From: Kallipyga gabonensis | GTDB taxonomy: Bacteria > Bacillota > Clostridia > Tissierellales > Peptoniphilaceae | DNA: 64,000 nt | Direction: 5' to 3' | NCBI RefSeq assembly: GCF_001286805.1 | Contig: NZ_CXYV01000002.1 | Coordinates: 372,001 to 436,000, forward strand | Shown here: one piece after another, positions 1,508 to 42,606 of the stretch | Position numbering within the stretch: position 1 is the first letter of the stretch | Layout of the letters: every line of letters starts with the position of its first letter | Program-made: the position numbers and the translations under genes | The notes under the pieces: model-generated | Told to the model about the DNA's origin: nothing | The model's database searches: none | The model's input: only the letters and a program-made list of their open reading frames with translations

Positions 1508-2230
1508 TTGAGTTCAATTTCGAATATTTTCGGCTCGATCATGCGTTTCTTCTATGAAACGCTGCAAGGTAAAGGGGCCGAGCCGGAGATGATTTCTTTC
1601 TTCGCCATATCCATCCTTCTAATGGCTGTGGTGAGTAAGTTGATTACCATCCCCCTGACCTACCAGTCCACCAAAAATTCAGCTAAAATGAAGGACTTCC
1701 AACCCCAGCTGGAGAAGCTCAAGGAAAAGTACGGCTATGACGAGCGGATCCTCCAGCAGAAGACCATGGAGTTTTATAAAGAGAATAATCTTTCTGCCGC
1801 AGGCTGTTCATCTTGTCTGCCCATGGTCATCCAACTGGTCCTCATCGTGGCCCTCTTCGCTGTACTCCGCGAACCGGGCAAGTATATCTTTGATAATCCT
1901 GACCAGTTCAACCATATCCAGAAAAACTTCTTCTGGATTCAGGACCTCTCCCAAGCAGACCCCCTCCAGTGGTTTGGTCTGCCTCTGATCAATATGATCA
2001 CGACCTACGCTTCCACCTTCCTCAACCCTGCCATGAAGATGCAGAAGGATAGCCCGGCGGGCGGTTCTGCGGCCATGTTGAAATTCATGCCTCTGATCTT
2101 TTACTTCATGTCCATTTCCTGGTCAGCCGGTCTGATTCTTTATTGGGCTTTCGGAAATATTTTGGAAGTGATTTTCCGCCTGATCTCAGGAGCGGTTCTC
2201 TCCGCAAGATCTTCCAAGGCACAAGAGTAA
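1508..2230 (+). CDS. yidC: Membrane protein insertase YidC/SpoIIIJ family
   Basis: Oxa1/YidC-type insertase that places proteins in the cytoplasmic membrane. The 240-residue protein has hydrophobic segments near residues 28-50, 104-120, 153-172 and 192-228, with a basic cytoplasmic loop (residues 51-92) after the first. Residues 44-53 (KLITIPLTYQ) occupy the place of the hydrophilic-groove arginine segment, with lysine instead of arginine. The start is TTG, preceded by GAGAGGG at 1493-1500. No lipobox is seen, unlike many Bacillus homologues. It lies directly before jag, a conserved pair. Confidence 0.94.
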   Translation: MSSISNIFGSIMRFFYETLQGKGAEPEMISFFAISILLMAVVSKLITIPLTYQSTKNSAKMKDFQPQLEKLKEKYGYDERILQQKTMEFYKENNLSAAGCSSCLPMVIQLVLIVALFAVLREPGKYIFDNPDQFNHIQKNFFWIQDLSQADPLQWFGLPLINMITTYASTFLNPAMKMQKDSPAGGSAAMLKFMPLIFYFMSISWSAGLILYWAFGNILEVIFRLISGAVLSARSSKAQE

Positions 2231-2256
2231 TGGGCAATAGATAGGAAAGGAAAGCA

Positions 2257-3153
2257 ATGACCACAGTAATTAAGACAGCAGATTCGGTAGAAAAAGCGGT
2301 TCAGCAGGCTCTTGATTCCTTACAGGTTGGTCGCGAAGAAGTGACCATCGATGTCTTAAAAGAAGCTAAGGCAGGGTTCTTAGGTTTCGGGGCTCAGGAT
2401 GCCGTTGTTCGGGTTTCCCTCAAAGAAGACCACTTCGATGACCTTCTTAAAGAAGAAAAAATCCGGGAAGAAGACCCCACCACAAGCCCTTCGTCCCTTG
2501 AAAATGAGGAAGAAGATTTTTCCTCGTTTGATGAGGAGGACGCTCAAGAAATCCTTGATTCCCCTGAGGAAGAGGATCAAGATGAGCCGGAAGAGCCTTG
2601 GGAAGAATACTCCAAGGAAGAGCTCTATGGGGATTGGGATGCCTATGTTAACCGGGAAGGGGCGGATTTTAGCCATCTTTTCCCCGATGAGGTAGAAGAT
2701 CCCTTAGCCTACTGCAAGGAATGGATGGAAACCCTTCTCTCCCTCATGCACATTGACGGTGAAGTCAAGGTGAGTAAGGAGGGCGATGCTATCCTTTTGG
2801 AGATTGTGAATATTTCAGAGACGGATACGGGGATTGTCATCGGACGCCGGGCGGAGACCTTAAATGCGATCCAGTACATTCAGTCCATCGCTGTCAACCG
2901 CTTAAGCAAGATCCACCACCAGGTTTATGTGGATGTGGGTGGCTACCGGTCACGCCGTAAGACCTCTATTCAAAAGATGGCCCAGAGGAATGCGGATAAG
3001 GTCCTCAAGACCGGACGCCCTTACCGGATGGAAGCCATGAATGCCTATGAACGTCGGTTGGTTCACACTGCCCTTCAGGATGTAGAAGGAGTGACCACAG
3101 CTTCCGAAGGCCGAGATCCCTACCGGAAGGTCGTCATCCGAATCGATGAGTAA
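2257..3153 (+). CDS. jag: RNA-binding protein Jag/KhpB
   Basis: RNA-binding protein that in Bacillota pairs with KhpA and affects cell envelope and division genes. The 298-residue protein has a Jag-N domain (about 1-50, with KEAKAGFLGFGAQDAVVRV), a long acidic linker (about 60-135), a KH domain around 150-215 (GIVIGRRAETLNAIQYI) and a C-terminal R3H domain (about 230-295, ending in the region of ERRLVHTALQ). A strong terminator follows immediately, so jag ends the first transcription unit. Confidence 0.93.
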   Translation: MTTVIKTADSVEKAVQQALDSLQVGREEVTIDVLKEAKAGFLGFGAQDAVVRVSLKEDHFDDLLKEEKIREEDPTTSPSSLENEEEDFSSFDEEDAQEILDSPEEEDQDEPEEPWEEYSKEELYGDWDAYVNREGADFSHLFPDEVEDPLAYCKEWMETLLSLMHIDGEVKVSKEGDAILLEIVNISETDTGIVIGRRAETLNAIQYIQSIAVNRLSKIHHQVYVDVGGYRSRRKTSIQKMAQRNADKVLKTGRPYRMEAMNAYERRLVHTALQDVEGVTTASEGRDPYRKVVIRIDE

Positions 3154-3157
3154 GGAC

Positions 3158-3187
3158 AAGGCACTCCTTCCGGAGTGCCTTTTTTTT
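3158..3187 (+). terminator. Rho-independent terminator after jag
   Basis: A perfect 10-bp stem AAGGCACTCC / GGAGTGCCTT with loop TTCC is followed by a run of eight T. It sits five bases after the jag stop codon and separates the rpmH-jag unit from mnmE. Confidence 0.92.
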
Positions 3188-3203
3188 ATGGAAAGGAAAG
3201 ACC

Positions 3204-4637
3204 ATGATCAACCCATCCGGATATGAAAAGAGCGGAGACAACCGGCCCATGGGCACCGTGGATGCCGACACTATTGTTGCCATCTCTACAGCTCAGGCTC
3301 CTGCCGGCATCGGGATTGTTCGCCTATCCGGCCCTGAGGCTTTTTCGTTAGCGGACCGGGCCTTTCAGGCCTATTCCGGCAGGGCATTTTCACCCTCGGA
3401 CCAAAGGAAACTCCGCTATGGCCACATTGTGGACGGGGGAAGTGTCCTTGACGAGGTTCTCTGCGTCTACATGAAAGCTCCCCATACCTATACGGCGGAA
3501 GATATTGTTGAAGTTAACTGTCATGGAGGCAGGGTTTCCGTCCAGAAGGTTCTCTCTCTTTTCCTCCGAATGGGGGCAAGAATGGCTGAGCCCGGAGAAT
3601 TTACCCGTCGAGCCTTCCTCAATGGGCGGATTGATTTAGCCCAGGCCGAAGCTGTGGAGGACATCATCCGAGCGAAGACCGGGCTTGCCCAGGAATCCGC
3701 TGTCCACCAGTTAACCGGAGGAGTCTCTAAGAAGATCAACGGTCTGAAAGAGGACCTTCTCCACCTCCTTGCCCATGTGGAGTATGCCATCAACTTTATG
3801 GAAGATGCCATGGAAGACCTCCCCAGGGAGCCCATGGAAGAAGAAGCCCGGGCTCTTATCAACCGGATGAATCAGGCCCTTTCCGGGGCCGAAACAGGAC
3901 GGCTAATCCGGGAAGGAATTAAGACGGTCATCGTGGGTCGGCCCAATGTGGGCAAGTCCTCCCTCTTAAATGCTCTTTTGGAGGATGACCGGGCCATCGT
4001 CACGGATATTCCGGGAACGACCCGGGATGCTATCGAGGAATCTTTCCAGGTAGAGGGCCTCCGACTCCGCCTGATTGATACGGCCGGGATCAGGGAAACG
4101 GATGACCTGGTCGAATCCATGGGCGTGGACCGGTCCCTGGCTCTTATGGAAGAAGCGGATTTAGTCCTGGTGATTGTCGATGGATCTCAAGCCCTTCAAA
4201 AAGAAGATAGGGAGATCCTGGAGAAGATAGGATCCCGCCTCCACCTCATCCTGGTCAATAAGGTGGATCTGGCTCTTTCCTCGGACGCCCAGGACCTGAT
4301 CAAAGGGGAAGGATCTTCCGGCCCGGTCCTGGCTATTTCCGCCATGACCGGTCAGGGAGTAGCGGAATTGGAGACTGCCTTATCCGACCTCTTTTTTGAA
4401 GGAGAGGACGGCCGGGAGGGTGCGGACTTCCTTTCCAACATTCGCCAGATCGACCTTCTGGAAAAATCCAGGGATTCTCTATCCTCCGCCCTAAGGGGAC
4501 TCGAAATCGGGGTCAGCCTGGATGCCCTGGATGTGGACCTCCAGGATGCCTACCAGGATTTGGCCGCCATCACCGGGGAGTCCATTGAAGAAGATGTTCT
4601 TAACAAAATCTTTCAAGATTTTTGCGTGGGAAAGTAG
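3204..4637 (+). CDS. mnmE: tRNA uridine-5-carboxymethylaminomethyl modification GTPase MnmE
   Basis: GTPase that with MnmG modifies U34 of certain tRNAs. In order: an N-terminal folate-binding domain (TIVAISTAQAPAGIGIVRLSG), a helical domain, then a G domain with GRPNVGKS (about 245-252), DTAGI (about 292) and NKVD (about 352). The C-terminal FCVGK carries the catalytic cysteine (residue 474 of 477). Start ATG 3204 has GGAAAGGAAAG upstream; an internal ATG at 3249 would also leave the domain intact. It is followed by mnmG after 6 bases. Confidence 0.96.
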   Translation: MINPSGYEKSGDNRPMGTVDADTIVAISTAQAPAGIGIVRLSGPEAFSLADRAFQAYSGRAFSPSDQRKLRYGHIVDGGSVLDEVLCVYMKAPHTYTAEDIVEVNCHGGRVSVQKVLSLFLRMGARMAEPGEFTRRAFLNGRIDLAQAEAVEDIIRAKTGLAQESAVHQLTGGVSKKINGLKEDLLHLLAHVEYAINFMEDAMEDLPREPMEEEARALINRMNQALSGAETGRLIREGIKTVIVGRPNVGKSSLLNALLEDDRAIVTDIPGTTRDAIEESFQVEGLRLRLIDTAGIRETDDLVESMGVDRSLALMEEADLVLVIVDGSQALQKEDREILEKIGSRLHLILVNKVDLALSSDAQDLIKGEGSSGPVLAISAMTGQGVAELETALSDLFFEGEDGREGADFLSNIRQIDLLEKSRDSLSSALRGLEIGVSLDALDVDLQDAYQDLAAITGESIEEDVLNKIFQDFCVGK

Positions 4638-12523: not shown

Positions 12524-13537
12524 ATGGGAATCGTTGAAAACAGAAGCTTGGGACTGATCGAAGAGTTTGTTGAAGAAATCAAGGGGTCAGACATCCGGAT
12601 CGTTTACCCGGAGGGGAATGATGAGCGAATCCTGCGTGCAGCCCGCCGTCACAAGAGGGACGGAATTATCGTTCCGATTCTGATCGGGAATCCGGAAGAG
12701 ATCAAGGCCTTAGCCAAGTCGGAAGCCTTGGATATTGAAGGGATTGAAATCATCGACCCCGAGACCTTTGAGAAGAAAGAAGAGATGATCCAGAAATTCA
12801 TCGAACGTCGGAAGGGGAAGGTGGATGAGGCCGGTGCCCGGGAGAAACTCAAGGACCGGAACTACTTCGGAACCATGCTGGTCTATATGGGTCTGGCTGA
12901 TGGACTGGTTTCTGGTGCTGTGGGCACGACCGCTGCGACCATCCTGCCCGGCCTCCAGATCATCAAGATGGGCCCCCAGTCCAAGATGGTCTCCGGCTGC
13001 TTCGTCATGATCTCCCCTGAAGATACCCACCGCTACCTCTTTGCGGACTCCGCCGTCAACTTCAACCCCAGTGCCAGCGAGATTGCGGATATTGCCAATG
13101 AGACGGCCCGGACGGCCACCCAATTCGGCATCGACCCCAAGGTTGCCCTCCTTTCCTTCTCCACCAAGGGATCGGCATCTTCTCCGGAGCAGGAGAAGAT
13201 GGAAGAGGCCACGAAGATCGCCAAAGAACGCTATCCTGAGCTGGACGTCGATGGTGAACTTCAGTTTGATGCGGCGATTGATGAAGTAGTCGGCAAGCGG
13301 AAGGCCCCCGGTTCTCCGGTGGCCGGACATGCTACAGTTTTCATCTTCCCTGACCTCCAGGCCGGGAACATCTCCTACAAGATCGCTGAGCGTCTGGGCG
13401 GCTACACGGCCCTGGGCCCCATCCTCCAAGGGATGGCCAAGCCGGTCAACGACCTTTCCCGTGGTTGCAATGTTGACGATGCCTACCAGATGGGCATCAT
13501 TACCGCCTTCCAGGCCTATAAAGCCAGAGAGGCTTAA
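12524..13537 (+). CDS. pta: Phosphate acetyltransferase
   Basis: Interconverts acetyl-CoA and acetyl phosphate; with acetate kinase it yields ATP in fermenters. The 337-residue single-domain enzyme shows VYPEGNDERILRAARRH, GLVSGAVGTTAATILPGLQII, KMVSGCFVMIS, LSFSTKGSASSPE, FDAAIDEVVGKRKAPGSPVAG and NISYKIAERLGGYTALGPILQGM. A clear AAGGAGG precedes the ATG. Phosphate butyryltransferases are related, but the length and the GPILQG C-terminus favour Pta. No ackA is adjacent in the window. Confidence 0.92.
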   Translation: MGIVENRSLGLIEEFVEEIKGSDIRIVYPEGNDERILRAARRHKRDGIIVPILIGNPEEIKALAKSEALDIEGIEIIDPETFEKKEEMIQKFIERRKGKVDEAGAREKLKDRNYFGTMLVYMGLADGLVSGAVGTTAATILPGLQIIKMGPQSKMVSGCFVMISPEDTHRYLFADSAVNFNPSASEIADIANETARTATQFGIDPKVALLSFSTKGSASSPEQEKMEEATKIAKERYPELDVDGELQFDAAIDEVVGKRKAPGSPVAGHATVFIFPDLQAGNISYKIAERLGGYTALGPILQGMAKPVNDLSRGCNVDDAYQMGIITAFQAYKAREA

Positions 13538-13625
13538 TTATCCTATCTCGGATTCAAAACGAATCCATAAAAAATCAGGCGATTTGATCAAGTAGAAAAT
13601 ACCCTCATCCAGATTCAAAAATGAT

Positions 13626-13669
13626 CCCCTAAAGTTGGACCGTAATTCCTACTTTAGGGGGTATTTTTT
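13626..13669 (+). terminator. Rho-independent terminator after pta
   Basis: A perfect 10-bp stem CCCCTAAAGT / ACTTTAGGGG with a 15-base loop is followed by GTATTTTTT. It marks the end of the origin-proximal core block; AT-rich foreign sequence begins right after. Confidence 0.88.
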
Positions 13670-13778
13670 GAAAAAATATCATGTTTATGAAATAATCTAT
13701 CCACAAGTAAAAATCTAAAAACGAACGCCTATCATTGACCAATCCACCTATAAAATGAATAGCTTCTATTGAGAATAT

Positions 13779-15251
13779 TTACTGTTTTTTTAAGGCAAGT
13801 ACTTGATAATCCTCCTTTAAAAAAGCACGATCGTGTGTAGCAATTAGTATAATTTTGTTATTGCTTCTCAAGGACTTTAACCAAGCACGTACCTCACATT
13901 GGCTTGCCTCATCCAAATAATTGGTCGGTTCATCAATAAGGTATAGGGATTTTTTTTCTTGTAGGAGAAAAGTTAACTGCGCTTTTTTTTTCTGTCCCAT
14001 GGATCCATAAGAAAACTTGTTCAGTTTTCCCAATGTGCTGATATATGCCGTAGCCGGAACATAGCACATATCTTGAAAGAAATGTTCTGGATTTTCTGAA
14101 AGATCTTTTCCGTTGATCCGAATGGTACCATGATATCTTGAGCAGAGATTAAGGATACATTCCATCAACGTCGTTTTGCCGACGCCATTTTCTCCCATCA
14201 ATAAATAGATATTCCCACGGCGTAGAGATGCATGTAAAGGAGTGTGTAAAGGTTTATTATTTGTATCTAGAGCTTGCATATCCATTAGATCAAGTGACTT
14301 GATTTTTTCTTCAGAAATGGACATGGTAGGAAGATTTAGTATCTCATTAATCTGGTTGATACTTGCTTTTGCAGCTAGCAAATCGCTTCGAATTTGGAAG
14401 AGAGATTCCACCGGCGTCCAAAAACGGCTGACGAAGAGGTTGATGGCGAATACATCACCTATCTTCATTTTACCTTTGATGACAAGAAAGGTTGAAAGAG
14501 CAAACGAAAGCGTGATCACGGCATTCAGCGGCGCATACATCATGAAATTGAGTACCTTGCTTTCATAGTGTATCTTTTTGTTTGTATTTACAGCAAAGGA
14601 GTCGAAAATATTTATAAAAGGTGGAAGCTGTTTTTGTGTTGAGAACCTCTCAACAGAATTTAGGTGTAAATCATCTATAAAATAATCTTTAATGTCTTTA
14701 CCATTCTCTAATACAAGTTGCGAATAATTTGACAAAGGTTCACCATAACGAATCGACAAGAAAACACAAAATGGAATGATGAAAAGAAAAATACAAATCA
14801 TATATGGTGAAATCGAGTAAGAAATAGCTACAATCACTAAAATTTGCAAAATATTTAAAATGATTTTAATGGGATATTCAAAAAAGAAGGGACTCGCTGT
14901 CTCGAAACTTTCTCCTAAAAATTGGTTGAGAGTTGCCTCTTTCAATTTCGCTCTCTTGGGGTCCATATTCTTCAACTTTTGATCTAACAAAAAAAACACA
15001 TTTTTTTTTGTCGCAAGCATAGCTCTACCGGATGAAATATCTTCGAAATAATTAACCAGTTGAGTCAAAATAAACAATATGAAATCGATGCCAAGGAAGG
15101 AGAAAAAATTTTTAACATCCCTTTGTTCTACTCGCATTATTATTTCTGATGAGATAAGGGGAGCGATGGACCAAATAGCAATATGACACAGATAAACAAT
15201 AATATAAAAGGAGTTCTCCTTTTTATCACTGTAGCGAAACAATTGAAACAT
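13779..15251 (-). CDS. ABC transporter (permease-ATPase fusion), probable peptide exporter
   Basis: A 490-residue exporter half-transporter. Hydrophobic segments fill the first 300 residues (such as FYIIVYLCHIAIWSIAPLI and FFSFLGIDFILFILTQLV). The ATPase domain follows with Walker A GENGVGKTT, a degenerate signature YGSMGQKKKAQ, Walker B LYLIDEPTNYLDEA and H-loop THD. The signature departs from LSGGQ. The gene overlaps the SPASM protein by 26 bases and closes a three-gene minus-strand set with a small peptide ORF, so export of a modified peptide is the likely role. Base composition is much more AT-rich than the core flanks. Confidence 0.8.
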   Translation of the reverse strand: MFQLFRYSDKKENSFYIIVYLCHIAIWSIAPLISSEIIMRVEQRDVKNFFSFLGIDFILFILTQLVNYFEDISSGRAMLATKKNVFFLLDQKLKNMDPKRAKLKEATLNQFLGESFETASPFFFEYPIKIILNILQILVIVAISYSISPYMICIFLFIIPFCVFLSIRYGEPLSNYSQLVLENGKDIKDYFIDDLHLNSVERFSTQKQLPPFINIFDSFAVNTNKKIHYESKVLNFMMYAPLNAVITLSFALSTFLVIKGKMKIGDVFAINLFVSRFWTPVESLFQIRSDLLAAKASINQINEILNLPTMSISEEKIKSLDLMDMQALDTNNKPLHTPLHASLRRGNIYLLMGENGVGKTTLMECILNLCSRYHGTIRINGKDLSENPEHFFQDMCYVPATAYISTLGKLNKFSYGSMGQKKKAQLTFLLQEKKSLYLIDEPTNYLDEASQCEVRAWLKSLRSNNKIILIATHDRAFLKEDYQVLALKKQ

Positions 15252-16011
15252 GAGTCAACTCCTTAAAAAAATCGATCCATTCTTTACTAGAATTCTCTAA
15301 ACTGTTTGACCTGTATAGAGAAAGTAGAAAAAGACATTTATTGAGCAAAGATAGCCTTTCTTTTTTGCAAGAAACATTCAAGATGCCTGTTTCGATATAT
15401 GATACATAACAGCACCCACCTTTACAATATGTGTAAAATTCGCATGTTTTTTTTCTGCAAATTGGTGCCAAATAAGCATATGGGTAATATTTAGAGTTTA
15501 GATTACCAATCTTTGTCATTTCTTTTCCGGAAAAAGAATAGCATTTTATTAAATCTCCATTTGGATTAACAACAACAGAACCGATATCCCTTATTATACA
15601 ATCACCTCCTATTGAATAGTGGCTAGGAATATTAAATCCGAGTTGTGACAAACGATAATATAAATATAAAAGTGACATTGTCGATATCGGTTCCCCCAGA
15701 AAAGATGGATGATCAGTTTCAACATCGACAACATCGCAATAAATAAGAAGTTTACATCTACTTTTCCTCTCTATTATGCTACTTATCTCATCAATAAACT
15801 GATTCAAATAACCAATATTTTGATTCATAAGATTAACACGTAAGCTCACCTTTATCTTTTTATAAATAAGTTTTTTCAAATTTTTTAGAATTATGGCATA
15901 TGTTTCTACCCTTTTTTTTCCAATTCGGATTTGATTGTGTATTTGAGAAAAACCATCAATCGATAATTGTACATTAAAATTAAAACGTAAAAATAAGAAA
16001 AGATGTCTCAT
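15226..16011 (-). pseudogene. Radical SAM/SPASM peptide maturase, N-terminally truncated
   Basis: The 261-residue frame begins inside a radical SAM barrel: NVQLSIDGFSQIHNQIRIGK is the strand that normally lies about 100 residues after the CxxxCxxC cluster motif, which is absent. The C-terminal half is a SPASM domain with GDLIKCYSF, then CRKKTCEFYTYCKGGCCYV and a later CKK. The ORF opens immediately after a stop codon, lacks a ribosome binding site, and starts only 22 bases from the peptide ORF, so there is no room for the missing domain. I infer a deletion that removed the catalytic part of a RiPP maturase. Confidence 0.75.
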
Positions 16012-16033
16012 TCAAGTGTTAGCTTAGCATCTA

Positions 16034-16117
16034 TTAAGCTCTCTTTGGACACTTGTCCTTAATTGTAGGGACAGCTTCAGTGACTATTACTTTCACTTTT
16101 ATTGGTTTCTTATCCAT
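16034..16117 (-). CDS. Small peptide, candidate RiPP precursor (27 aa)
   Basis: From ATG 16117 to TAA 16034-16036 the peptide begins MDKKPIKVKVIVTEAVPT and ends IKDKCPKRA, with a single cysteine four residues before the last alanine. AGGACGG lies about 10 bases before the ATG and a TTGACA/TAGAAT promoter lies further up. It directly precedes a SPASM maturase and an exporter on the same strand, the usual order for RiPP cassettes. The C-terminus may have been altered by the deletion that truncated the maturase. No family was recognised from sequence alone. Confidence 0.55.
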   Translation of the reverse strand: MDKKPIKVKVIVTEAVPTIKDKCPKRA

Positions 16118-16171
16118 GATATTCACCGTCCTAAATCATTCTTATTAATACTAAACTCTACTACGATTTAA

Positions 16172-16199
16172 ATTCTATCTTTTTCTTTAGTTTTGTCAA
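16172..16199 (-). promoter_or_regulatory. Promoter of the small-peptide cassette
   Basis: On the minus strand, TTGACA (16194-16199) and TAGAAT (16172-16177) are separated by 16 bases. Transcription would start near 16165, giving a leader of about 48 bases before the peptide ATG at 16117. Confidence 0.65.
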
Positions 16200-16264
16200 T
16201 CGTCTAGAAAGTAATACTAATTCTTAGTTATCCAGATATTTCATCCGATTAAATAATAAGTTAC

Positions 16265-17566
16265 TTGTATATTAAGATGGCAAATGGAGACAGCCTCAAG
16301 GAATTATTTAGATCACAAGTTGAAATAGCACTAAATATGCTCATGCAGACAGAGCGAACCGCCTTCTTGGGCTACGAGCCTTGGGATCCTGCAGGTTACC
16401 ATAAGGGTAATAGAAGAAACGGATTTTGCGAACGCACTTTGAAAACTGAAATCGGCGAATTGAAGCTACAAATCCCGCGAGATCGGTTGGGGTTATTTGA
16501 GCAGAGAACAATTAATACGTACCTGGAAAGTCAGGATAACCTTGAGCAAAGCATTATCCTCCTTTACAGAAAGGGAATTAGCACACGAAAGATTAGCGAT
16601 CTCATTGAGAAAATGTATGGTCACTATTACTCAGCCCAAACTATTTCCAACATGTCACAGATCGTTGAAGAGGAGATCGCCTTATACAAGCAAAGGCCGG
16701 TAAAACGCAGATACACGGCTCTCTTCCGTGATGCCACTTTTATTAACGTTAGACGAGATACGGTGGCCAAAGAAGCCCTGCACGTCATTATAGGGATAGA
16801 CGAATTAGGCTACAAGGAAGTATTATCGTTTGAAGTTTACCCAACAGAAGCCGCTGTCAACTACCGAGAAATGTTAGAAAATCTAAAGCAAAGAGGTCTG
16901 GAAGAAGTCCTACTCTTTGTGTCTGATGAGCTAACCGGCTTAAGTTCGGCTTTAATCGATAGTTTTCTGAAAGCACGCCACCAGAGTTGCTGGACTCACC
17001 TTCTCAGAAATACCTCAAACAAAATAAAGCCGAGAGATAAGGATGAAGTGCTAAGGGATCTCAAGCTTGTTTACAAGGCCAAGGACAAATTAGAAGCCGA
17101 GGCAAAGCTTTCCGATTTTGCGGAAAAATGGCAAAGCAAATACCCTAAGGTGACAGCCGGCTATCAGGCGAAAGATAATATCTTTAGCTTCCTCGATTTC
17201 CCGGAAACCATACGTCCAAGCCTCTACACCAATAATGTGTCTGAGAACTTTAACAAGCAGTTAAAGCGGAGAACAAAAGTAAAAGAGCAATTCCCCAGCG
17301 AGGATGCTTTGGAAAAGGCAAGCTATTGCTATGTTGGCGAATATAACGCAAAATTCGGACAAAGGATTCACAAGGGCTTCAAGCTCGCCCAATTTCAGAT
17401 AACTGAACTTTTTGAAGAAATTTACGGATCAGAAACTGGAGACAAGGAACTCAAGCAGAAAATTTCATCCCCTATGGGGATGAAGAATCTCTTGAACTTG
17501 TCTCTTAAGCTATAGAGAGTATTTTACAAGTTTGAGAGTTTACACAAGATATTTGACACTACCGAT
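16265..17566 (+). mobile_element. IS256-family insertion sequence (borders not fully defined)
   Basis: The element consists of one IS256/mutator transposase gene. Downstream, GTTTACACAAGATATTTGACA (around 17548-17568) resembles a terminal inverted repeat of this family, but I find no matching complement between the peptide cassette promoter and the transposase start. The left end therefore seems diverged or lost. The element abuts the RiPP-like cassette that has suffered a deletion. Confidence 0.6.
16277..17515 (+). CDS. IS256 family transposase
   Basis: Full-length mutator-type transposase of about 412 residues. It shows LGYEPWD near the N-terminus, YHKGNRRNGFCERTLKTEIGELKLQIPRDR, and the DDE residues in LFRDATF, VSDELTGL and NNVSENFNKQLKRR. 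The CWTHLLRN stretch (C-x2-H) is also typical. An in-frame TTG at 16265 is possible, but ATG 16277 begins the family-like sequence MANGDSLKELF. The frame is intact, so it may still be active. It lies in the AT-rich patch between the peptide cassette and core genes. Confidence 0.92.
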   Translation: MANGDSLKELFRSQVEIALNMLMQTERTAFLGYEPWDPAGYHKGNRRNGFCERTLKTEIGELKLQIPRDRLGLFEQRTINTYLESQDNLEQSIILLYRKGISTRKISDLIEKMYGHYYSAQTISNMSQIVEEEIALYKQRPVKRRYTALFRDATFINVRRDTVAKEALHVIIGIDELGYKEVLSFEVYPTEAAVNYREMLENLKQRGLEEVLLFVSDELTGLSSALIDSFLKARHQSCWTHLLRNTSNKIKPRDKDEVLRDLKLVYKAKDKLEAEAKLSDFAEKWQSKYPKVTAGYQAKDNIFSFLDFPETIRPSLYTNNVSENFNKQLKRRTKVKEQFPSEDALEKASYCYVGEYNAKFGQRIHKGFKLAQFQITELFEEIYGSETGDKELKQKISSPMGMKNLLNLSLKL

Positions 17567-17611
17567 AATCAGTGAAAATGGATAGAAGAGTTATTTATCA
17601 AAAGCATAATT

Positions 17612-17655
17612 GCTAAGAAAAGGGATGCCTTCTGCAAAATATAAAAAGGCATCCC
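17612..17655 (-). terminator. Terminator of the GntR-ABC operon (minus strand)
   Basis: On the minus strand a 10-bp perfect stem GGGATGCCTT / AAGGCATCCC with a 14-base loop is followed by TTTTCTT. It lies about 85 bases after the ABC permease stop. Confidence 0.75.
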
Positions 17656-17738
17656 ATGTAATAGAAAGGTATAAATTGCCTGTCCGGCAATCTTGGTCCC
17701 TTCAGATGGTTGGACCGTTTCTTCAGGACCTTTAAAGA

Positions 17739-18590
17739 TTAGTGAATATCAATTTTTCGGTCCGTAGTGTAGACCGTCAGGGCCCAGAAGAGGAAGGTGA
17801 AGGCCAGGCTGAGTAGGATAAGGGGGATCTGGGAAGAGAGCATTTGGTAGAACTCGTCATTGATGATCTGAAGGACTTCTTCCGAGCTGGCTGTGGCCGG
17901 TAGGCTATCCAATCTCGCTTCGAAAGAATCACCTGTTGGAATATGGAGGATAAAGCCGAAGGCGAAGCTGGCCAGGGTTTGGGCAAATTGCGTGATGATC
18001 ATGACCACAACGGGGCCGCCTGCGCCCAGCTTCCGGAAGACCCATGCCGACCCCACGGTGACGGAGAAGGAGAGGACGGCGGCGGAGCAGAGGAGGCCGG
18101 TGATCAGGGAAAGGATGAAGATAGGGGTGGCCGGGGAGAAGAAGATAGGTTTGACCATCTGGCCGATGAAGTCCAGCATTTCATCCATGGAGGGTCTTAC
18201 CGGCTCTGCTGTAAAAAGCTGGAGGGATCGAAAGACGGAAAGGAGAAGCTGGAGTCCGGCGGAGACCATGGTGAGGAGGGAGAAGGTCAGGTAGTAGAAG
18301 GTCCGGGCAGCAGTGAATTCCCGCCCGCTTGCCGGGATGGACCGGTAGAAGTAGGACCGGGTCCCCTCCATGTTTTTATAGTCCTGGACAATGGTGATGA
18401 AGTAGATGGCCAGGTGGGCGGCAAAAAGGACAAAGAATTGGATGATGAAGGTAACAGAGATCCACTCGCCCTGGCTGCTGAAAAAGCTGGAAATCAGGAA
18501 GAGGGCAAGGAAGGCCCAGGCCAGTCCCAGGGCAATCCCGATGGGCTTGAGGGTTTCCTTGCACATTTGTTGATAAAGTTTGCCGATCAT
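17739..18590 (-). CDS. ABC transporter permease
   Basis: A 283-residue integral membrane protein with six to seven hydrophobic segments, including PIGIALGLAWAFLALFLISSFF, FIIQFFVLFAAHLAIYFITI, FILSLITGLLCSAAVLSF and IPLILLSLAFTFLFWALTVY. It shares an ATGA overlap with the preceding ATPase gene and is governed with it by a GntR regulator. YtrA-linked transporters of this kind often act in cell-envelope stress or antibiotic export; the substrate is unknown. Confidence 0.85.
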   Translation of the reverse strand: MIGKLYQQMCKETLKPIGIALGLAWAFLALFLISSFFSSQGEWISVTFIIQFFVLFAAHLAIYFITIVQDYKNMEGTRSYFYRSIPASGREFTAARTFYYLTFSLLTMVSAGLQLLLSVFRSLQLFTAEPVRPSMDEMLDFIGQMVKPIFFSPATPIFILSLITGLLCSAAVLSFSVTVGSAWVFRKLGAGGPVVVMIITQFAQTLASFAFGFILHIPTGDSFEARLDSLPATASSEEVLQIINDEFYQMLSSQIPLILLSLAFTFLFWALTVYTTDRKIDIH

Positions 18591-31960: not shown

Positions 31961-32665
31961 ATGCGAGATAAATTCAAAAAAGTTTTAAATCAAGTTATTT
32001 CAGAATATGAATCAAATGAAAACATACTAGGATTGCTCTTATTTGGATCATTAGCTAAAGGAACGGAACACTCTAGAAGTGATATTGATTTGATTGCAAT
32101 AAGTGAAGAGACTGAAGATAAGACTACAAATAAGCTTTATGGGGATATAGCTGTCCAAACCATATGGAGAAGTAAAGAGGATTTTCGATTTAAAACATCG
32201 AAAAGAACGAGATTTACTCCTGCATCTAAAAGCTACAAGGTTTTAATTGATAAAGAATCTTGGATAAAAGAATTTTTGAAATCTGATATTGTTCAAAATA
32301 CTTGGAAAGAGCCACTTCCATTGACTGAAAGAGAAAAGCTATTAATGTCTACTGATTTTGCCTCAAGTTTAGACGCTATAAAAGGTTTAGATGAGCAGGG
32401 AAAACACATTGAAATAGAAATGTTTATTAATGATTACATATATTTAGGGTTAGAACTTCTTTATAATAACCGGAAATGGTTTATTAAGCCAAAAAAATAT
32501 ATTCTTGAAGATCTGAAAGTTAAATCACCTGAAGTATGGGATCTTGTAAGAGAAATATATTATTCTAAATCGGTTGATAATAGGTTAGGTAATTTTGAAA
32601 AATTTTATTTTAGAATTATTAAATCTATTGATCAGATTCAAAGAGAATATACTATCTATTGGTAA
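31961..32665 (+). CDS. Nucleotidyltransferase domain protein
   Basis: A 234-residue protein with a Pol-beta type nucleotidyltransferase core: LLLFGSLAKGTEHSRSDIDLIAI holds the GS and DxD motifs (third aspartate not assigned). The C-terminal half is helical (IEIEMFINDYIYLGLELLYNNR), like HEPN-type or kanamycin-nucleotidyltransferase C-termini. GGGGGAAG before ATG 31961 fixes the start; GTG 31949 is also in frame. It sits before a GNAT acetyltransferase. A drug-modifying or toxin-antitoxin role is possible, but nothing in the sequence decides. Confidence 0.7.
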   Translation: MRDKFKKVLNQVISEYESNENILGLLLFGSLAKGTEHSRSDIDLIAISEETEDKTTNKLYGDIAVQTIWRSKEDFRFKTSKRTRFTPASKSYKVLIDKESWIKEFLKSDIVQNTWKEPLPLTEREKLLMSTDFASSLDAIKGLDEQGKHIEIEMFINDYIYLGLELLYNNRKWFIKPKKYILEDLKVKSPEVWDLVREIYYSKSVDNRLGNFEKFYFRIIKSIDQIQREYTIYW

Positions 32666-32716
32666 AGAATATAAAGGAGTATAGTTAGGCCTTAACGGGA
32701 TAGTTTTTGGAGATGA

Positions 32717-33178
32717 ATGATGAAATATACTTTTGAGAGACTAAACAAAGATAATTTTAGCAAGTATTTTGATTATTTATTATTGGCTAGTACATTAGAA
32801 CCGGAACTGATGTGTTCCTCTGATATAAATAAAGAAGACCTTTATGAAAGGTTGGATGATGAATTAGTAAAAAGAAGCACTTCAATATTAGCTATGTATG
32901 ACGATAAAGTGGTCGGAAGAATAGAATATCATTTTTATTCATGTTTTCAGGATGGTTATAGAATATGCTATGTCGATTGGGTGTATGTATTACCGGAGAA
33001 TAGAAATAAAGGGATAGCAAAAGAGTTGTTTAATCAAATGACTAAAGATTGCGTTAGCCATAATATTGATGAAATTCGCTTAATAAGAGCTACTAATAAA
33101 AACGCAAACGACTTTTACGATAGTTTTCAATCTGCCAAGCTCTGTGATCTTCCATTTTTTATACAACATTTACATTAG
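32717..33178 (+). CDS. GNAT family N-acetyltransferase
   Basis: A 153-residue protein with the acetyl-CoA binding motif VYVLPENRNKGIAKELF (about residues 92-108), preceded by strand ILAMYDDKVVGRIEYHFY. The late part IDEIRLIRATNKNANDFYDSF is also typical. GGAG lies 6-8 bases before the first of two adjacent ATGs. It follows the nucleotidyltransferase by 51 bases. The substrate is unknown. Confidence 0.8.
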   Translation: MMKYTFERLNKDNFSKYFDYLLLASTLEPELMCSSDINKEDLYERLDDELVKRSTSILAMYDDKVVGRIEYHFYSCFQDGYRICYVDWVYVLPENRNKGIAKELFNQMTKDCVSHNIDEIRLIRATNKNANDFYDSFQSAKLCDLPFFIQHLH

Positions 33179-33207
33179 AAGATTTAGGTGTATCCGATAA
33201 GAGATCT

Positions 33208-33330
33208 AGCTTTTTGAGGATGCACTAAACGAGGTGCTCAATGCTTAAAGTCATCCTATCCAACCGCTTCGAGAAAGATTTGAGGCTTGCCCAAAAAAGG
33301 GGACTTGATCTTCGTCTCTTCAATCTCTAA
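33208..33330 (+). pseudogene. RelB/YafQ-type toxin-antitoxin relic
   Basis: An antitoxin tail (EDALNEVLNA, stop near 33247) overlaps a toxin start at 33241 that reads MLKVILSNRFEKDLRLAQKR and ends after 29 residues. YafQ toxins begin just this way (S-x-RF-KDL-x-KRG-DL) but have about 90 residues. Both genes are therefore remnants. Confidence 0.65.
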
Positions 33331-33357
33331 AGTCACTCCTTGCGGGGTGGCTTTTTT
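33330..33357 (+). terminator. Rho-independent terminator
   Basis: AAAGTCACTCC pairs with GGGGTGGCTTT (including G-T pairs) around loop TTGC, followed by TTTTTT. It directly follows the toxin relic stop. Confidence 0.75.
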
Positions 33358-33465
33358 GTTATACCCATGTTCGCCCATAAGTGTTGTAATTCTCGAATGG
33401 CACTCACGACATGGATATGAAGAGGCCTTAAACATATGTACTAAAGGTGGCAATAATTCTAACTA

Positions 33466-33510
33466 TTGAAAATGAACATCAACAGAAATATAATGTTAGC
33501 ATAAGCTAAC
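33466..33510 (+). promoter_or_regulatory. Promoter with TetR-type operator before the hydrolase operon
   Basis: TTGAAA (33466-33471) and a perfect TATAAT (33489-33494) are 17 bases apart. Immediately after, GTTAGCATAAGCTAAC (33495-33510) forms an inverted repeat of the form GTTAG-N7-TAAC. It overlaps the transcription start, where a repressor would block initiation. The same form occurs at 35868, 36528 and 42552. The leader to the hydrolase ATG is about 160 bases with nothing else recognised. Confidence 0.75.
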
Positions 33511-33663
33511 GAAAGAAGCGGATGCGTATGCGATAATTCCTAAGGGAGGAGCGGGGCGTAAGCCATTTCAGGTGATAGGGAATGAAGCGAAGTGATAAGG
33601 ATCATTTCTAGACAGTGATTTGGCGAATTGGGATTAACGGATTACATAATGGAGTAAAATAAA

Positions 33664-34599
33664 ATGAGTTTAAATTATACAATTGCATCAGGAATAGTAA
33701 GACTGCTTGGTTTCAAAAAGATATTTTTAAAGAATAAAGAGGAGATGCTGGAGTACGCAAAAGGAGAAAATGCCAAAGTTGTATTTGACCTAGGCAAGGC
33801 AATGAGAAGGGCAAAGAGAAGGAAGTATCATCTTTTTGATCGAGACGTGATGGGATATCGGCTTCTTTCTTATCAAAATAATCTAACCCCGGCCAAGGGG
33901 GCAGTCCTCTATCTCTTCGGCGGAGGAATGATCACTCAGCCGAATCCATTGGATTTTCCCTTGGCGGAAAGAATCATGGAAAAGACGGGGAAAGATGTTT
34001 GGTTTTTATTTTATCCACTTTGCTCAGAAGATGTTAAGGTGGATAAAACCTATGAAGTATCTTTTGAAACCTATAGGTTAATGACAGAAACGTATAAGGC
34101 GGAAAATATTAGCGTACTTGGATTTTCATCAGGCGCTTGTCTATCCATCGGGATTTTTTTACACAATAATGCTTTAGGTAGACCCCTTACAATGCCAGGT
34201 AAAATCATTTCCATTTCACCGGGAGGAATTCCCGATGTCAATCTTGATGAGAATAAAGAAATATGGGAGAGAGTAAATGAACTCAACCATAAAGACATCA
34301 TGATTGACCCTACATATATTAAAACAGCAAGAGAAATAGCAAAGGGAGACGAAGATTTACCTGAATATATGTTAGACGGAACGGTGGGAGATTTTACCAA
34401 CTTTCCGAAAATTTACTTTTATTTTGGAGAAAATGAATGCCTTTATGCCTTTGCGGGAGAGTTTAGAAAGGCAATGGAAAAATACCATGTCCCCTATGAA
34501 ATCATTGTAGGTAAAGGAATGTGCCACTGCTATCCTTTGGCGAGGTTTTTTAGAGAAGGAAGAGAGGCGCAAGATCAAATTATTGAAATCTTAACCTAA
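33664..34599 (+). CDS. Alpha/beta hydrolase (esterase/lipase-like)
   Basis: The 311-residue protein has an oxyanion-hole strand VLYLFGGGMITQ and the nucleophile elbow GFSSGACLS. A histidine in MCHCYPLARFF is a plausible third triad residue and EN in YFYFGENECLYAF a plausible acid-bearing loop. This is the layout of HSL/esterase-type hydrolases. It heads an operon with two membrane proteins behind a TetR-type operator. The substrate is unknown. Confidence 0.75.
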   Translation: MSLNYTIASGIVRLLGFKKIFLKNKEEMLEYAKGENAKVVFDLGKAMRRAKRRKYHLFDRDVMGYRLLSYQNNLTPAKGAVLYLFGGGMITQPNPLDFPLAERIMEKTGKDVWFLFYPLCSEDVKVDKTYEVSFETYRLMTETYKAENISVLGFSSGACLSIGIFLHNNALGRPLTMPGKIISISPGGIPDVNLDENKEIWERVNELNHKDIMIDPTYIKTAREIAKGDEDLPEYMLDGTVGDFTNFPKIYFYFGENECLYAFAGEFRKAMEKYHVPYEIIVGKGMCHCYPLARFFREGREAQDQIIEILT

Positions 34600-34624
34600 A
34601 GACGAAGAAGGGATTTGAAAATCC

Positions 34625-35104
34625 ATGCTTTTCATTGAAATCGTCATTTTATGCTCTGCATTTTTCGCCCTCTGTTTCTTGGCTACCGGCACGGATGAGA
34701 AAAATTTAAGAAATTACATGTCCTATCCTGATGAGGTTCAAAAGCAAATCAAAGAGATTGCAGAGTATCAGGGAAAATACAAGGAAACAAGCAGATTTAC
34801 CGCGTGGATTGCAAATTTTTTACTATTTGCCATCTTATTTTTATTGTTGGGTATCACCACCCGTCAGACAAACTTTATGCATAACTTTATTCATTTGCTA
34901 ATTTTAGGTGAAACGTTAAATGTTTTTGACCTCTTCGTTATTGACTTACTATGGTGGAGAAATACAAAGAGAATTAGGTTATCAAAAATACCCCAAAAGG
35001 AGCTCTACCAAAATCCCAAAAAGCACATTGAAGCTTTTTCTAGAGCCTTGGTTTTGTATTTCCTTGTTGCGGTGGTTGATGGATATCTATTGGCTCTGTT
35101 TTGA
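34625..35104 (+). CDS. Hypothetical four-helix membrane protein A
   Basis: The 159-residue protein has hydrophobic segments at about 1-20, 62-80, 90-112 and 140-158. The motif LILGETLNVFDLFVIDLLWWRNTKRI parallels LILFEGYKLFDIIFFDYLMLTKLKL in the next gene, so the two look like distant paralogues. It follows the hydrolase by 25 bases. I do not recognise the family. Confidence 0.6.
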   Translation: MLFIEIVILCSAFFALCFLATGTDEKNLRNYMSYPDEVQKQIKEIAEYQGKYKETSRFTAWIANFLLFAILFLLLGITTRQTNFMHNFIHLLILGETLNVFDLFVIDLLWWRNTKRIRLSKIPQKELYQNPKKHIEAFSRALVLYFLVAVVDGYLLALF

Positions 35105-35275
35105 AAAATAACCCTAGGAATGTGTTTTTGGGCTACTGAAAGAATTTGCATCGAGTCTTGCTTGTCAAGTAGAACGAGATTAGGAAAATTCACACCAACG
35201 TAGTTGACATAATGAAAGAGAAAATTGCTTCCATTTCCGCAATGATTTATACCTTGAGAGAGGAGGTAAACGAAA

Positions 35276-35773
35276 TTGATAAAAACACTTGCTATGTTAC
35301 TCATTGTCTGCTTATTGGCATCAATTATGATGATGAATTTTATACTTATTATACCGAAATTTGGCTCGAAGCATTTCGGCGCACCTGATGACATCAAAGT
35401 GATGATGAGTATGTTGCCAGAAAAACCGATTTGGGTCAATATCATCGGCGGACTTATCATGATACTTGGATTGCTAGTTATTGCAGGCGTTCTGGTTTGG
35501 GCAATTGTTGATACAGTAAAATTGCATCTAACTTTTCAGCAAGCCTTTCTTAGATTTTTAATCCTATTTGAAGGCTATAAGCTTTTTGATATTATTTTTT
35601 TTGATTACCTCATGCTTACCAAGTTAAAATTACCCACTAAAGTGTACCCAGAGACGGCTGGTGCCAAGGGATATGATAATTTTGGGTTTAATGCGAAAAG
35701 TCAGATTGCAAGAGTTATCATCTTCTTTTTCGTGAGTCTCCTTTTGGCTTATTTACTTACCGTTCTGGTTTAA
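35276..35773 (+). CDS. Hypothetical four-helix membrane protein B
   Basis: The 165-residue protein has hydrophobic segments at about 3-28, 52-75, 88-112 and 145-163. It shares topology and the LF-D-x2-xFDYL loop with the preceding membrane protein. The start is TTG at 35276 behind GAGGAGGT. Between the two genes lie 170 bases without a recognised element. The pair might form a heteromeric membrane unit, an inference from pairing alone. Confidence 0.6.
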   Translation: MIKTLAMLLIVCLLASIMMMNFILIIPKFGSKHFGAPDDIKVMMSMLPEKPIWVNIIGGLIMILGLLVIAGVLVWAIVDTVKLHLTFQQAFLRFLILFEGYKLFDIIFFDYLMLTKLKLPTKVYPETAGAKGYDNFGFNAKSQIARVIIFFFVSLLLAYLLTVLV

Positions 35774-35846
35774 CGAGAAATTTATAGCTTGGCGACGCTC
35801 TTCCTCACTCCCTTGTCCTATGCTTAGCATTCGAGTCTCAATAGTG

Positions 35847-35883
35847 TTGACAAGAGAAAAACAAAGAGTTAGTATTAGCTAAC
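35847..35883 (+). promoter_or_regulatory. Promoter and operator of the first TetR gene
   Basis: TTGACA (35847-35852) and TAGTAT (35870-35875) are 17 bases apart. The repeat GTTAGTATTAGCTAAC (35868-35883, form GTTAG-N7-TAAC) covers the -10 box, which suggests autorepression. Confidence 0.72.
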
Positions 35884-35914
35884 GTAACCGACGAAACCGT
35901 CGATGGAGGAAATG

Positions 35915-36511
35915 ATGCGAGTGGTCAAATCAAAAAGGGAGCGTAAAAAGGAAATTATGGAAGCGGCGAAGTCTGTCTTCCTAGAAAAAGGTTTTGAAAA
36001 AACCACCATGGAAGATATCATTGCAGGAACCTCCCTTTCCAAGGGTGGTTTCTACCACTACTATACTTCCACCACCGATATCCTCCACGACCTCATGATT
36101 GAAGGCATCGCCTACCGCATTAACATCATAAAGCAGGCGGTCGGTCAAGCCTCTGCATGGGACAACGAAAGTTTGATCAATATGATGGTAGATAAGGTTT
36201 TGGATGAAAGCGACCTTATGAGCCTTTATGTGATCTTCCTTCAGGCCTCCCAGAGAAATCAGGCTCTGAGAGATCTTTTTCAGGAACTGAAGCAGGATAA
36301 CCGTGCCATGTATGAAGAAAGTTTTGGCAGGGAATCGCAAAAAAGTATGGAATATTTCTACTCCGATCTTTTTCTCCATTTCATGAACTCTATTATGTTG
36401 GGATCAGAAATACTAGGTGCTCGGGAAGTTTTCCGTAAAAATCGATCGCTTTTTGTGGCTATGATGAAGCTTGCCTTTGATTATGTGCGGGAGGGCAAGA
36501 TGATGACCTAA
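35915..36511 (+). CDS. TetR family regulator 1
   Basis: A 198-residue TetR repressor. The N-terminal helix-turn-helix reads RKKEIMEAAKSVFLEKGFEKTTMEDIIAGTSLSKGGFYHYY, followed by an all-helical ligand-binding domain. Three nearby ATGs exist; GGAGG (35905-35909) best fits 35915. Its HTH resembles that of the second TetR at 42.6 kb (LSKGGFYHYY versus LSAGGLYYYY). It precedes an exporter pair and probably represses that pair, itself and the upstream hydrolase set. Confidence 0.9.
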   Translation: MRVVKSKRERKKEIMEAAKSVFLEKGFEKTTMEDIIAGTSLSKGGFYHYYTSTTDILHDLMIEGIAYRINIIKQAVGQASAWDNESLINMMVDKVLDESDLMSLYVIFLQASQRNQALRDLFQELKQDNRAMYEESFGRESQKSMEYFYSDLFLHFMNSIMLGSEILGAREVFRKNRSLFVAMMKLAFDYVREGKMMT

Positions 36512-38336: not shown

Positions 38337-40057
38337 TGAAAAGAAAATTACAAGAAACTTTTGCTCTAACCGAAAAAGGGGCTAGGGGCATGATGCGGGC
38401 ATCATTCGCTTCCTTTTGCGTGAACATCACCTATATGACAGCCATGATGGCCTTTTTTGCCTTTGCCCAGGACCTTTTGACCGATGGAAAGCTAAGCCAC
38501 CTGCCCTTATATCTCCTGGCCGTGGTCGTCATTGTGGTCCTCATGTATCTGGCCTTGGATTTTGAGTATCGGGCCACCTACAATACGACCTACGCTGAGT
38601 CCCGGGACCTGCGCATTGCCATTGCCGATACCATGAAAGAACTCCCCCTGAGCTATTTTGCCAAACATGACTTGTCCGATCTGGCCCAGACCATGATGCA
38701 GGATGTCTTGGATATGGAGCATGCTTTTTCCCATGCTGTACCCCAAGCCATCGGAGCGGGGATCTTTTTGGTCATCATGGTCATCATGATTTTAATCAGC
38801 AATTTTTGGATTGGCCTGGCCATTCTTATCCCCACGGCAGTCAGCCTTGCCATCATCCTTCTTTCCAAACGCTATCAAAAAAACTTTGAGAAAAAGTTCT
38901 ATAATCAAAGCCGGAAAAATGTGGAAATCATCCAGGATGCCATCGAAATGCAGCAAGAAATTCGCTCCTACAACCTGGTGGGCGAAAAAAGACGGCAAAT
39001 TCACCAGGCCATACGGGCAGCCGAAAAAATGCACATGCAAGCCGAAGTGGGTCAGGGCATTCCGGTTATGTCGGCTATGACCATTGCCAAATTAGCCCTG
39101 GCCAGCACAATCTTGACCGTGGCCTATTTTATGGTCAAGGGCCAGATGACGGCCCTTTATGCTATTGGCTATATGATCGCCGCAACCCGTTTGACCTCCG
39201 CCATGGACGGCGTCAGCATGAACATCGCTGAACTCTTTCATATTGATGTCCGGGTCGATCGTATCAAGGAACTCAAAAACACACCGGTTCAAAGGGGACG
39301 GGAAGTGGAACTGAAAAACTTTGATATCGAAGTGAAGGACCTCTCCTTTGCTTATGGAAAAAATCCGGTTTTAAATGGCGTAAATTTCTCGGCCAAGCAG
39401 GGGGAAGTCACAGCCTTGATTGGACCTTCAGGGTCGGGCAAAACCACCATGATCCGTCTCCTCTCCCGCCTTTACGATGTTGACCAAGGCGAAATTACCA
39501 TTGGCGGTCATTCCCTAAAAGACATCGCTCCGGACTGTCTCTATCGACAGATTTCCATGGTTTTTCAAGATGTAACCCTCTTTAATGGAACGGTCATGGA
39601 AAATATCCGCATTGGCTGCAAAAGCGCCAGTGATGAAGAAGTCATGGAAGCGGCCAGGAAGGCCAACTGTGAAGACTTTATCTTAAAACTTCCCAAGGGC
39701 TACCAAACCCTGATCGGGGAGAACGGCAGCAAGCTTTCAGGAGGGGAAAGGCAAAGACTATCCATTGCCCGGGCCTTCTTAAAGGATGCCCCCATCCTCC
39801 TCCTGGACGAAATTTCAGCTTCCCTTGATGTGGAAAATGAGATGGCCATTCAAAAGAGCTTGAATGCCCTGATGAAAGACAAGACCGTGGTCATCATCTC
39901 CCACCGGATGAAGTCGATTGAAAATGTGGATCAAATTGTCGTCTTTGAAGAAGGCCGGGTGAATGGCATAGGTCGTCATGAGGAACTGATGACCAGCTCA
40001 GCGCTTTATCGGAACTTGGTTGAGAAGTCGAGTTTGACGGAAGCGTATGTTTATTAG
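38336..40057 (+). CDS. ABC exporter (permease-ATPase), first pair, subunit B
   Basis: A 573-residue half-transporter with an N-terminal membrane domain (for example FLVIMVIMILISNFWIGLAIL) and an ATPase domain with Walker A GPSGSGKTT, signature KLSGGERQR, Walker B PILLLDEISASLDVENE and H-loop ISHRM. The start shares one base with the stop of subunit A. All motifs are intact. It is the last functional gene before the second composite repeat. Confidence 0.9.
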   Translation: MKRKLQETFALTEKGARGMMRASFASFCVNITYMTAMMAFFAFAQDLLTDGKLSHLPLYLLAVVVIVVLMYLALDFEYRATYNTTYAESRDLRIAIADTMKELPLSYFAKHDLSDLAQTMMQDVLDMEHAFSHAVPQAIGAGIFLVIMVIMILISNFWIGLAILIPTAVSLAIILLSKRYQKNFEKKFYNQSRKNVEIIQDAIEMQQEIRSYNLVGEKRRQIHQAIRAAEKMHMQAEVGQGIPVMSAMTIAKLALASTILTVAYFMVKGQMTALYAIGYMIAATRLTSAMDGVSMNIAELFHIDVRVDRIKELKNTPVQRGREVELKNFDIEVKDLSFAYGKNPVLNGVNFSAKQGEVTALIGPSGSGKTTMIRLLSRLYDVDQGEITIGGHSLKDIAPDCLYRQISMVFQDVTLFNGTVMENIRIGCKSASDEEVMEAARKANCEDFILKLPKGYQTLIGENGSKLSGGERQRLSIARAFLKDAPILLLDEISASLDVENEMAIQKSLNALMKDKTVVIISHRMKSIENVDQIVVFEEGRVNGIGRHEELMTSSALYRNLVEKSSLTEAYVY

Positions 40058-40070
40058 AAAGAAACAATCT

Positions 40071-40148
40071 GTAGACACCCATCCGGGACTCTCAATCCAC
40101 GTTGAACCCCTAACTTTGATAGTGCGAGAGCTGCGGACTGCAGGCTAG
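40071..40148 (+). pseudogene. Relic of an rlmD-like 3' end
   Basis: The frame reads VDTHPGLSIHVEPLTLIVRE then LRTAG and stops. Methyltransferases of the RlmD/TrmA family end in VDxFPxTxHVExxxLLxR, and the rlmD of this window ends KHAETVCLMVRDPRSAG. Spacing between the shared CACG and TTGAT blocks is the same 23 bases in both copies. No upstream part of such a gene remains; an exporter gene stops 13 bases earlier. Confidence 0.6.
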
Positions 40149-40345
40149 GTGGCTCAACATAGTGTTGGTTTGGAAAAAAGGTTAAACCACCACTATGGTT
40201 TTTGGGCTTAGAATAGTGTTGGTTTTGAGTAATCAGTAAATCAACACTATTTTTTTGCTCCCTAAAGTAGTGGTGGTTCGACGTAAAAGCCAAGTCAACA
40301 CTAATGAGGCGGGGAAAAGTGTAGTGGTGATTCGCCCACGTCCTG
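40117..40345. repeat. Composite repeat, copy 3
   Basis: After the shared 3'-end segment the hairpins follow in the same order as at 30.4 kb: TAGTGTTGGTTTGG/AAACCACCACTAT, TAGTGTTGGTTTTGAG/AAATCAACACTA, TAGTGGTGGTTCG/AAGTCAACACTA, then a left arm TAGTGGTGATTCG. Linkers such as GAGGCGGGGAAAAG match GAGGTGGGAAAAGC at 30.6 kb. A toxin-antitoxin relic follows within 80 bases. Confidence 0.75.
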
Positions 40346-40415
40346 CATTTTGTCGGGTGAAAACATGGATAAAGTGGCGAAATAATGATAAAATTAAGCC
40401 AAAAGGAGGTACGTG

Positions 40416-42600: not shown

Positions 42601-42606
42601 AGGGAA

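Follow-up and report, generated by a model that had tools for sequence, protein, structure and literature searches.

In the freyrasin system, the precursor PapA carries six CX3D motifs in which Cys stands before Asp, and the maturase PapB rejects the transposed order DSANC (PMC9413430). SCIFF precursors have six cysteines in 45 residues, and their maturase CteB combines a radical SAM domain with a SPASM domain in clostridial hosts (structures 5wgg and 5why; TIGR03974); the leader of CteA lies strand-like within the RRE of CteB (PMC8326336). The streptococcal NxxC RaS-RiPPs (NxxcA/NxxcB) have one thioether, from Cys to the upstream Asn at position −3 (PMC8326336, PMC13361665). All these systems share features with the cassette analyzed here, which consists of a small peptide ORF, a radical SAM/SPASM maturase and an ABC exporter and, like SCIFF, comes from clostridial hosts.

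The best NCBIfam match of both intact maturases was PapB (NF047865), with 126.9 and 106.6 bits, far below the equivalog cutoff of 340 bits. As in PapA, the presumed core contains Cys and Asp, but here a single Cys follows the Asp (D-K-C) and neither peptide has a CX3D motif; neither a score of at least 340 bits nor the CX3D/E motifs of PapA/PapB ranthipeptides were found. The closest solved structure by sequence was CteB (5wgg, E 1.3e-24). In comparison to SCIFF, the maturases reached 76.7 and 73.1 bits against a TIGR03974 cutoff of 425, the precursor has one Cys instead of six in 45 residues, and the SPASM spacing is CX4CX5CX3C against CX2CX5CX3C in the CteB alignment. With the NxxC RaS-RiPPs the cassette shares a single-Cys core, for which an upstream acceptor is envisaged, but position −3 is occupied by K or G (K-D-K-C, G-D-K-C) and not by Asn, and no Rgg/SHP regulator was seen beside the cassette. 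The geopeptide (TIGR04280) and Clo7bot (TIGR04334) maturases were the second- and fourth-best NCBIfam matches of the intact enzyme, which scored 123 and 103 bits where the cutoffs are 400 and 600. Judged by sequence, the maturase is thus nearest to the PapB, SCIFF, Clo7bot and geopeptide maturases, with all equivalog cutoffs missed widely. No DKCPxR peptide is described in the literature covered, which is incomplete. The cassette represents a small new subfamily of a well-known system type, distinguished by its DKCPxR core and its own maturase.

The window, the whole stretch of 64,000 nucleotides analyzed, comes from the genome of Kallipyga gabonensis (1.62 Mb in two contigs, 90% complete), where the cassette is single-copy. 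As the preliminary description had it, a promoter, a 27-aa ORF, a SPASM-domain protein and an ABC exporter follow one another on one strand, the minus strand, and every part was found where it had been placed. The stretch is AT-rich, also as described, with 33% GC against 56% in the adjoining pta. The sigma-70-type promoter at 16172–16199 (minus strand; TTGACA-16 bp-TAGAAT) has 11 of 12 consensus matches and is the best site of the region. The putative precursor peptide MDKKPIKVKVIVTEAVPTIKDKCPKRA is encoded at 16034–16117 (minus strand), with the Shine-Dalgarno-like sequence AGGACGGTGA and AGGACGGTGAATATC-ATG at its start, and has its single Cys five residues before the end. The 490-aa exporter at 13779–15251 (minus strand) is intact and includes transmembrane and ATPase domains, with no peptidase domain; Pfam confirmed it as an ABC exporter, in which the ABC signature reads GSMGQ instead of LSGGQ.

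The genome search found one close relative, the metagenome-assembled genome (MAG) SUG1733 of the same genus, in which contig JAQYCE010000032.1 carries the same cassette at about 99.5% DNA identity with the window. The promoter is present there too, with a spacer of 15 bp against 16 bp in the window, and the identical 27-aa ORF is followed by a 418-aa maturase with the CNLCCSYC and GGEP motifs and a PF04055 match (E 4e-16). As to an N-terminal RRE domain, the approximately 65 residues preceding the CxxxCxxC motif had no Pfam match, and the AlphaFold2 model of the single intact maturase had a mean pLDDT of 37, too low for use. The SUG1733 exporter (contig positions 6758–8228) has two frameshifts in comparison to the window copy, both 1-bp gaps and one of them in a run of A; decay, phase variation and assembly error are all possible reasons.

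Among the 249 genomes of the order, the same maturase was present in just two more, G232 and G234, which belong to a genus of another family than that of Kallipyga. The similarity (34% identity, E ~1e-60) stands out from the background of other maturases (~1e-18 to 1e-31), and the G234 exporter, 39% identical to the window exporter, has a reading frame that overlaps the preceding maturase. Across both genera, the [4Fe-4S] and SPASM regions have ten invariant cysteines, and the CX4CX5CX3C spacing is common to the two. Upstream of the maturase, at a distance of some 3.9 kb that includes degraded insertion sequences, both genomes have a 22-aa ORF, MVKLIEKSTINGDKCPQRSRIN, with the perfect Shine-Dalgarno sequence AAGGAGGG. 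Profile searches across the class (391 genomes) and the phylum (399 genomes) produced no more clear relatives; a match in G713 (E 3.7e-39) contains one internal stop. Searches of plasmids, phages and viral contigs with the peptide, the maturase, the exporter or the cassette DNA found nothing of the subfamily. The claim of a RiPP-type cassette is strengthened by these copies, in that the peptide ORF recurs with an intact maturase in the congener and the cassette in a second genus. The intact relatives that had been anticipated thus exist and have a peptide ORF in front of the maturase, and the peptide did not turn out to be the fused start of an unrelated protein.

The two peptides both end in T-I-x(1,2)-D-K-C-P-x-R and have nothing clear in common before it. 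The preliminary description had looked for conservation in the leader, MDKKPIKVKVIVTEAV, which was the wrong end of the peptide: the leader has 20 residues in the window and 12 residues, MVKLIEKSTING, in the other genus, and it is the C-terminal core that is conserved. Small ORFs of related genomes, the subject of the check it proposed, include the 22-aa ORF with the same C-terminal motif. The core rests on about eight common residues from two divergent versions of the peptide. Such a small ORF by a maturase, with a core conserved across independent cassettes, is what is expected of a RiPP precursor, and two independent versions of it were found. The window peptide had no match among the NCBIfam and Pfam models. 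The KKPIKVKVIV part of its leader is strand-like, in which it resembles the CteA leader within the CteB RRE (PMC8326336).

Conservation is seen also at the nucleotide level. The palindrome GGACAAGTGTCC (16047–16058, minus strand), which codes for D-K-C-P and by folding could form a mini-hairpin GGAC-AAGU-GUCC, consists of 12 nucleotides identical in both genera, and together with an upstream ATTAA it occurred only in the window genome, G232 and G234 among the 391 genomes of the class. Four viral-contig matches to ATTAAN{0,3}GGACAAGTGTCC were attributed to chance, none of them lying in a comparable small ORF. In both cassettes the D-K-C-P codons include GAC and AAG, which are rare; the joint probability of this is 6e-4, that of third-base identity alone 0.29, and the test is only suggestive of constraint at the RNA level. 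Since the nucleotides of GGACAAGTGTCC are themselves conserved and use codons that neither cassette favors, it could be the RNA and not the peptide that is under selection there. In SUG1733, a long stem starts about ten bases past the peptide stop (transcript z −4.1). The maturase Shine-Dalgarno sequence AAAGGTG falls within its far arm, with pairing values of at least 0.98, and so do two of the three bases of the start codon, with values of at least 0.95. G234 has a different stable stem after the peptide (z about −2.4 to −2.7). The Rfam search gave no match, and an interpretation of the intergenic hairpin as a MITE was rejected because the element is single-copy. The burial of the Shine-Dalgarno sequence and most of the start codon suggests translational throttling of the maturase, so that less maturase than peptide would be made; a ribosome at the end of the peptide ORF would occupy the near arm, and the maturase could in this way be throttled yet coupled to the peptide.

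The main rival to a peptide substrate follows from these elements: the small ORF might be a regulatory leader, acting in attenuation or translational coupling, with the RNA hairpins as the conserved part and the maturase acting on some other substrate. The 12 conserved nucleotides with their rare codons, the strong hairpins past the stop codon in both genera and the masked maturase start in SUG1733 would fit this explanation. However, comparable radical SAM/SPASM enzymes usually act on a peptide from an adjoining gene, and no other common small ORF was found. The indel between the two versions is in frame (3 nt), T-I and R are conserved although they lie outside the palindrome, and a lone Cys near the C-terminus fits a RiPP core. 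Both roles may also coexist. We therefore consider selection on the RNA in place of the peptide unlikely, and a RiPP precursor the preferred reading of the small ORF.

Alignment of the window with the SUG1733 contig showed that exactly 547 bp are gone from the window in a clean deletion with TTT microhomology, the junction lying at 15990–15991. The deletion took the first approximately 162 maturase residues and the 3' arm of the intergenic hairpin, of which the 5' arm survives at 15991–16023 (minus strand); lost with it were the N-terminal region, the CxxxCxxC motif that binds the [4Fe-4S] cluster and the maturase's own ribosome-binding site. What remains is a 261-aa remnant at 15226–16011 (minus strand), without GGEP, of which residues 7–261 correspond to residues 164–418 of the intact protein, 255 of the 256 positions agreeing when the stop is included. 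Its start is a chance ATG within the former intergenic region, 22 bases past the peptide stop and with no Shine-Dalgarno sequence, and its end overlaps the exporter by 26 bp. The CxxxCxxC motif and PF04055 are absent from the remnant both in the sequence and in the Pfam search, which gave no match at all; against the SPASM model TIGR04085 the remnant scored 26.7 bits, just below the cutoff of 27, and it matches the C-terminal halves of many radical SAM/SPASM maturase models. The SPASM-region cysteines C295, C314, C342, C347, C353, C357 and C372 (SUG1733 numbering) are kept. The comparison bears out the earlier view of a maturase truncated by deletion of its CxxxCxxC half and starting 22 bases from the peptide stop. 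The suggestion that the deletion also touched the 3' end of the peptide has to be dropped: the intact cassette has the very same ORF, and because the junction lies about 45 bases past its stop, the peptide loses no bases. In the window the cassette cannot modify the peptide and the modification step is dead, while the peptide may still be expressed.

It is improbable that the 547-bp gap is an error of assembly or strain mixture and that the maturase of the window organism is in fact intact. In favor of an error, neither genome is complete (90% and 81%), that of SUG1733 was assembled from a metagenome, and the 547-bp gap lies close to another gap, of 175 bp, in the neighboring insertion sequence. 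Nevertheless, both junctions are at microhomology (TTT and CCATTTGC), which is typical of real deletions, the two-contig assembly is continuous with more than 99% identity on either side, and the genome has no second copy of the maturase.

Still less probable is a spurious 27-aa ORF whose resemblance to the ORF of G232 and G234 is fortuitous. The match is short, and 2.5% of the shuffled window peptides found an equal match in any ORF of the 8.5-kb contig, but only 0.1% of them equaled the match to the 22-aa ORF itself, which has the same orientation, lies upstream of a homologous maturase and has a perfect Shine-Dalgarno sequence. The back-translated motif pattern was detected in 16 of the 249 genomes of the order, but only in four of them, representing two genera, does it fall within a small ORF that starts with ATG and accompanies this maturase; in the remaining 12, all outside these genera, nothing resembles the peptide. 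The motif was not found in any of 3000 simulated upstream regions. On these comparisons, the small peptide is probably real. A remaining function of the remnant, such as peptide binding or electron transfer in partnership with another radical SAM enzyme, is hardly credible: its 261 codons are open and the auxiliary-cluster cysteines kept, but it has no Shine-Dalgarno sequence of its own and has lost part of the TIM barrel, and with an identity of 99.6% the deletion must be so recent that selection need not be invoked for the open frame.

In a congener (G079), pta and an ABC permease gene are separated by about 86 bp, whereas the same gap is 4.2 kb in the window (13531–17743), and the whole inserted segment is absent from that congener. 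In addition to the cassette, it contains an IS256-family element (16265–17563) with its transposase at 16265–17515 (plus strand). In comparison to SUG1733, where the element is complete and flanked by the 8-bp target duplication TGATTATC, the window element lacks 175 bp at its left end between CCATTTGC repeats. The identity between the window and SUG1733 peaks over the cassette at 99.4–99.6%, against 99.0% for pta, 96% for the permease and about 86% for more distant genes, a pattern that would fit a single acquisition passed between species by recombination. The best reading is that the cassette was acquired horizontally between pta and the ABC permease gene, the site being empty in the congener, and is now decaying. 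The preliminary description had not noted the empty site, the intergenic hairpin or the damage to the flanking insertion sequence. Every copy found has some damage and none is in an undamaged arrangement: the maturase is dead and the exporter open in the window, the maturase intact and the exporter frameshifted in SUG1733, and both genes open in G232 and G234, where insertion sequences part the peptide from the maturase. It would seem that the cassette is rare and that its hosts can do without it.

Some further repeats and loci were noted. An inverted-repeat sequence of about 40 bp, GATCCCCTAAAGTTGGAC...TTTAGGGG, at 13622–13662 recurs at five or more other sites of the genome; it borders the acquired segment and resembles the end of an insertion sequence or a small repeat. 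AT-rich stretches at 32001–36000 and 40001–44000 of the window (34–39% GC against 47.5% in the whole) are possibly other acquired segments. In the same bacterial family, locus L056 (genome G030; 2023–3727, minus strand) has a 428-aa radical SAM/SPASM gene between two Cys-rich ORFs of 71–72 aa, with a Fur-like gene and rplJ/rplL-like genes upstream; the shorter ORF, of 71 aa, matched no NCBIfam model, and the locus is a candidate for a separate RiPP locus. Locus L061 (G069) has two different radical SAM/SPASM genes on the same strand within about 2.3 kb. Genome G392, which had been considered as a relative, proved to contain a Cys-every-fifth (CefA/CefB-type) cluster, in which two adjacent precursors of 124 and 122 aa are followed by a CefB-type maturase and an ABC exporter (L067, 4356–6582).

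Taken as a whole, the locus is likely to be a horizontally acquired radical SAM RiPP cassette of peptide, maturase and exporter, belonging to a narrow and uncurated subfamily, with its modification step dead in the window. In the intact copies, the maturase would bind the 22–27-aa peptide through its short N-terminal leader and modify its T-I-x(1,2)-D-K-C-P-x-R core, most likely by forming a thioether between the lone Cys and a residue close to it; the product would then leave through the exporter. By analogy with the nearest enzymes, the subfamily is probably thioether-forming. A single thioether is the simplest prediction because the core has one Cys, and an upstream acceptor has a precedent in NxxcB, which joins Cys to the Asn that precedes it. 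The acceptor might be the conserved Asp two residues before the Cys, the sole conserved acidic candidate. We put forward only tentatively the more specific proposal of a new RiPP subfamily with a single D-K-C-P-x-R core, a CX4CX5CX3C maturase, an undescribed Asp-x-Cys crosslink geometry and, between peptide and maturase, a ribosome-sensitive hairpin that sets the dosage of the enzyme.

The pair of precursor and maturase lies outside the family libraries searched and has a very short precursor with a very small candidate core, which makes a co-expression test for a new crosslink easy. The hairpin over the start site of the enzyme would be a testable means of setting the ratio of peptide to enzyme. 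The copies also show by which routes such a cassette decays: by loss of the enzyme in the window, by frameshifts of the exporter in the sister MAG and, in the other genus, by insertion sequences that have come between peptide and enzyme.
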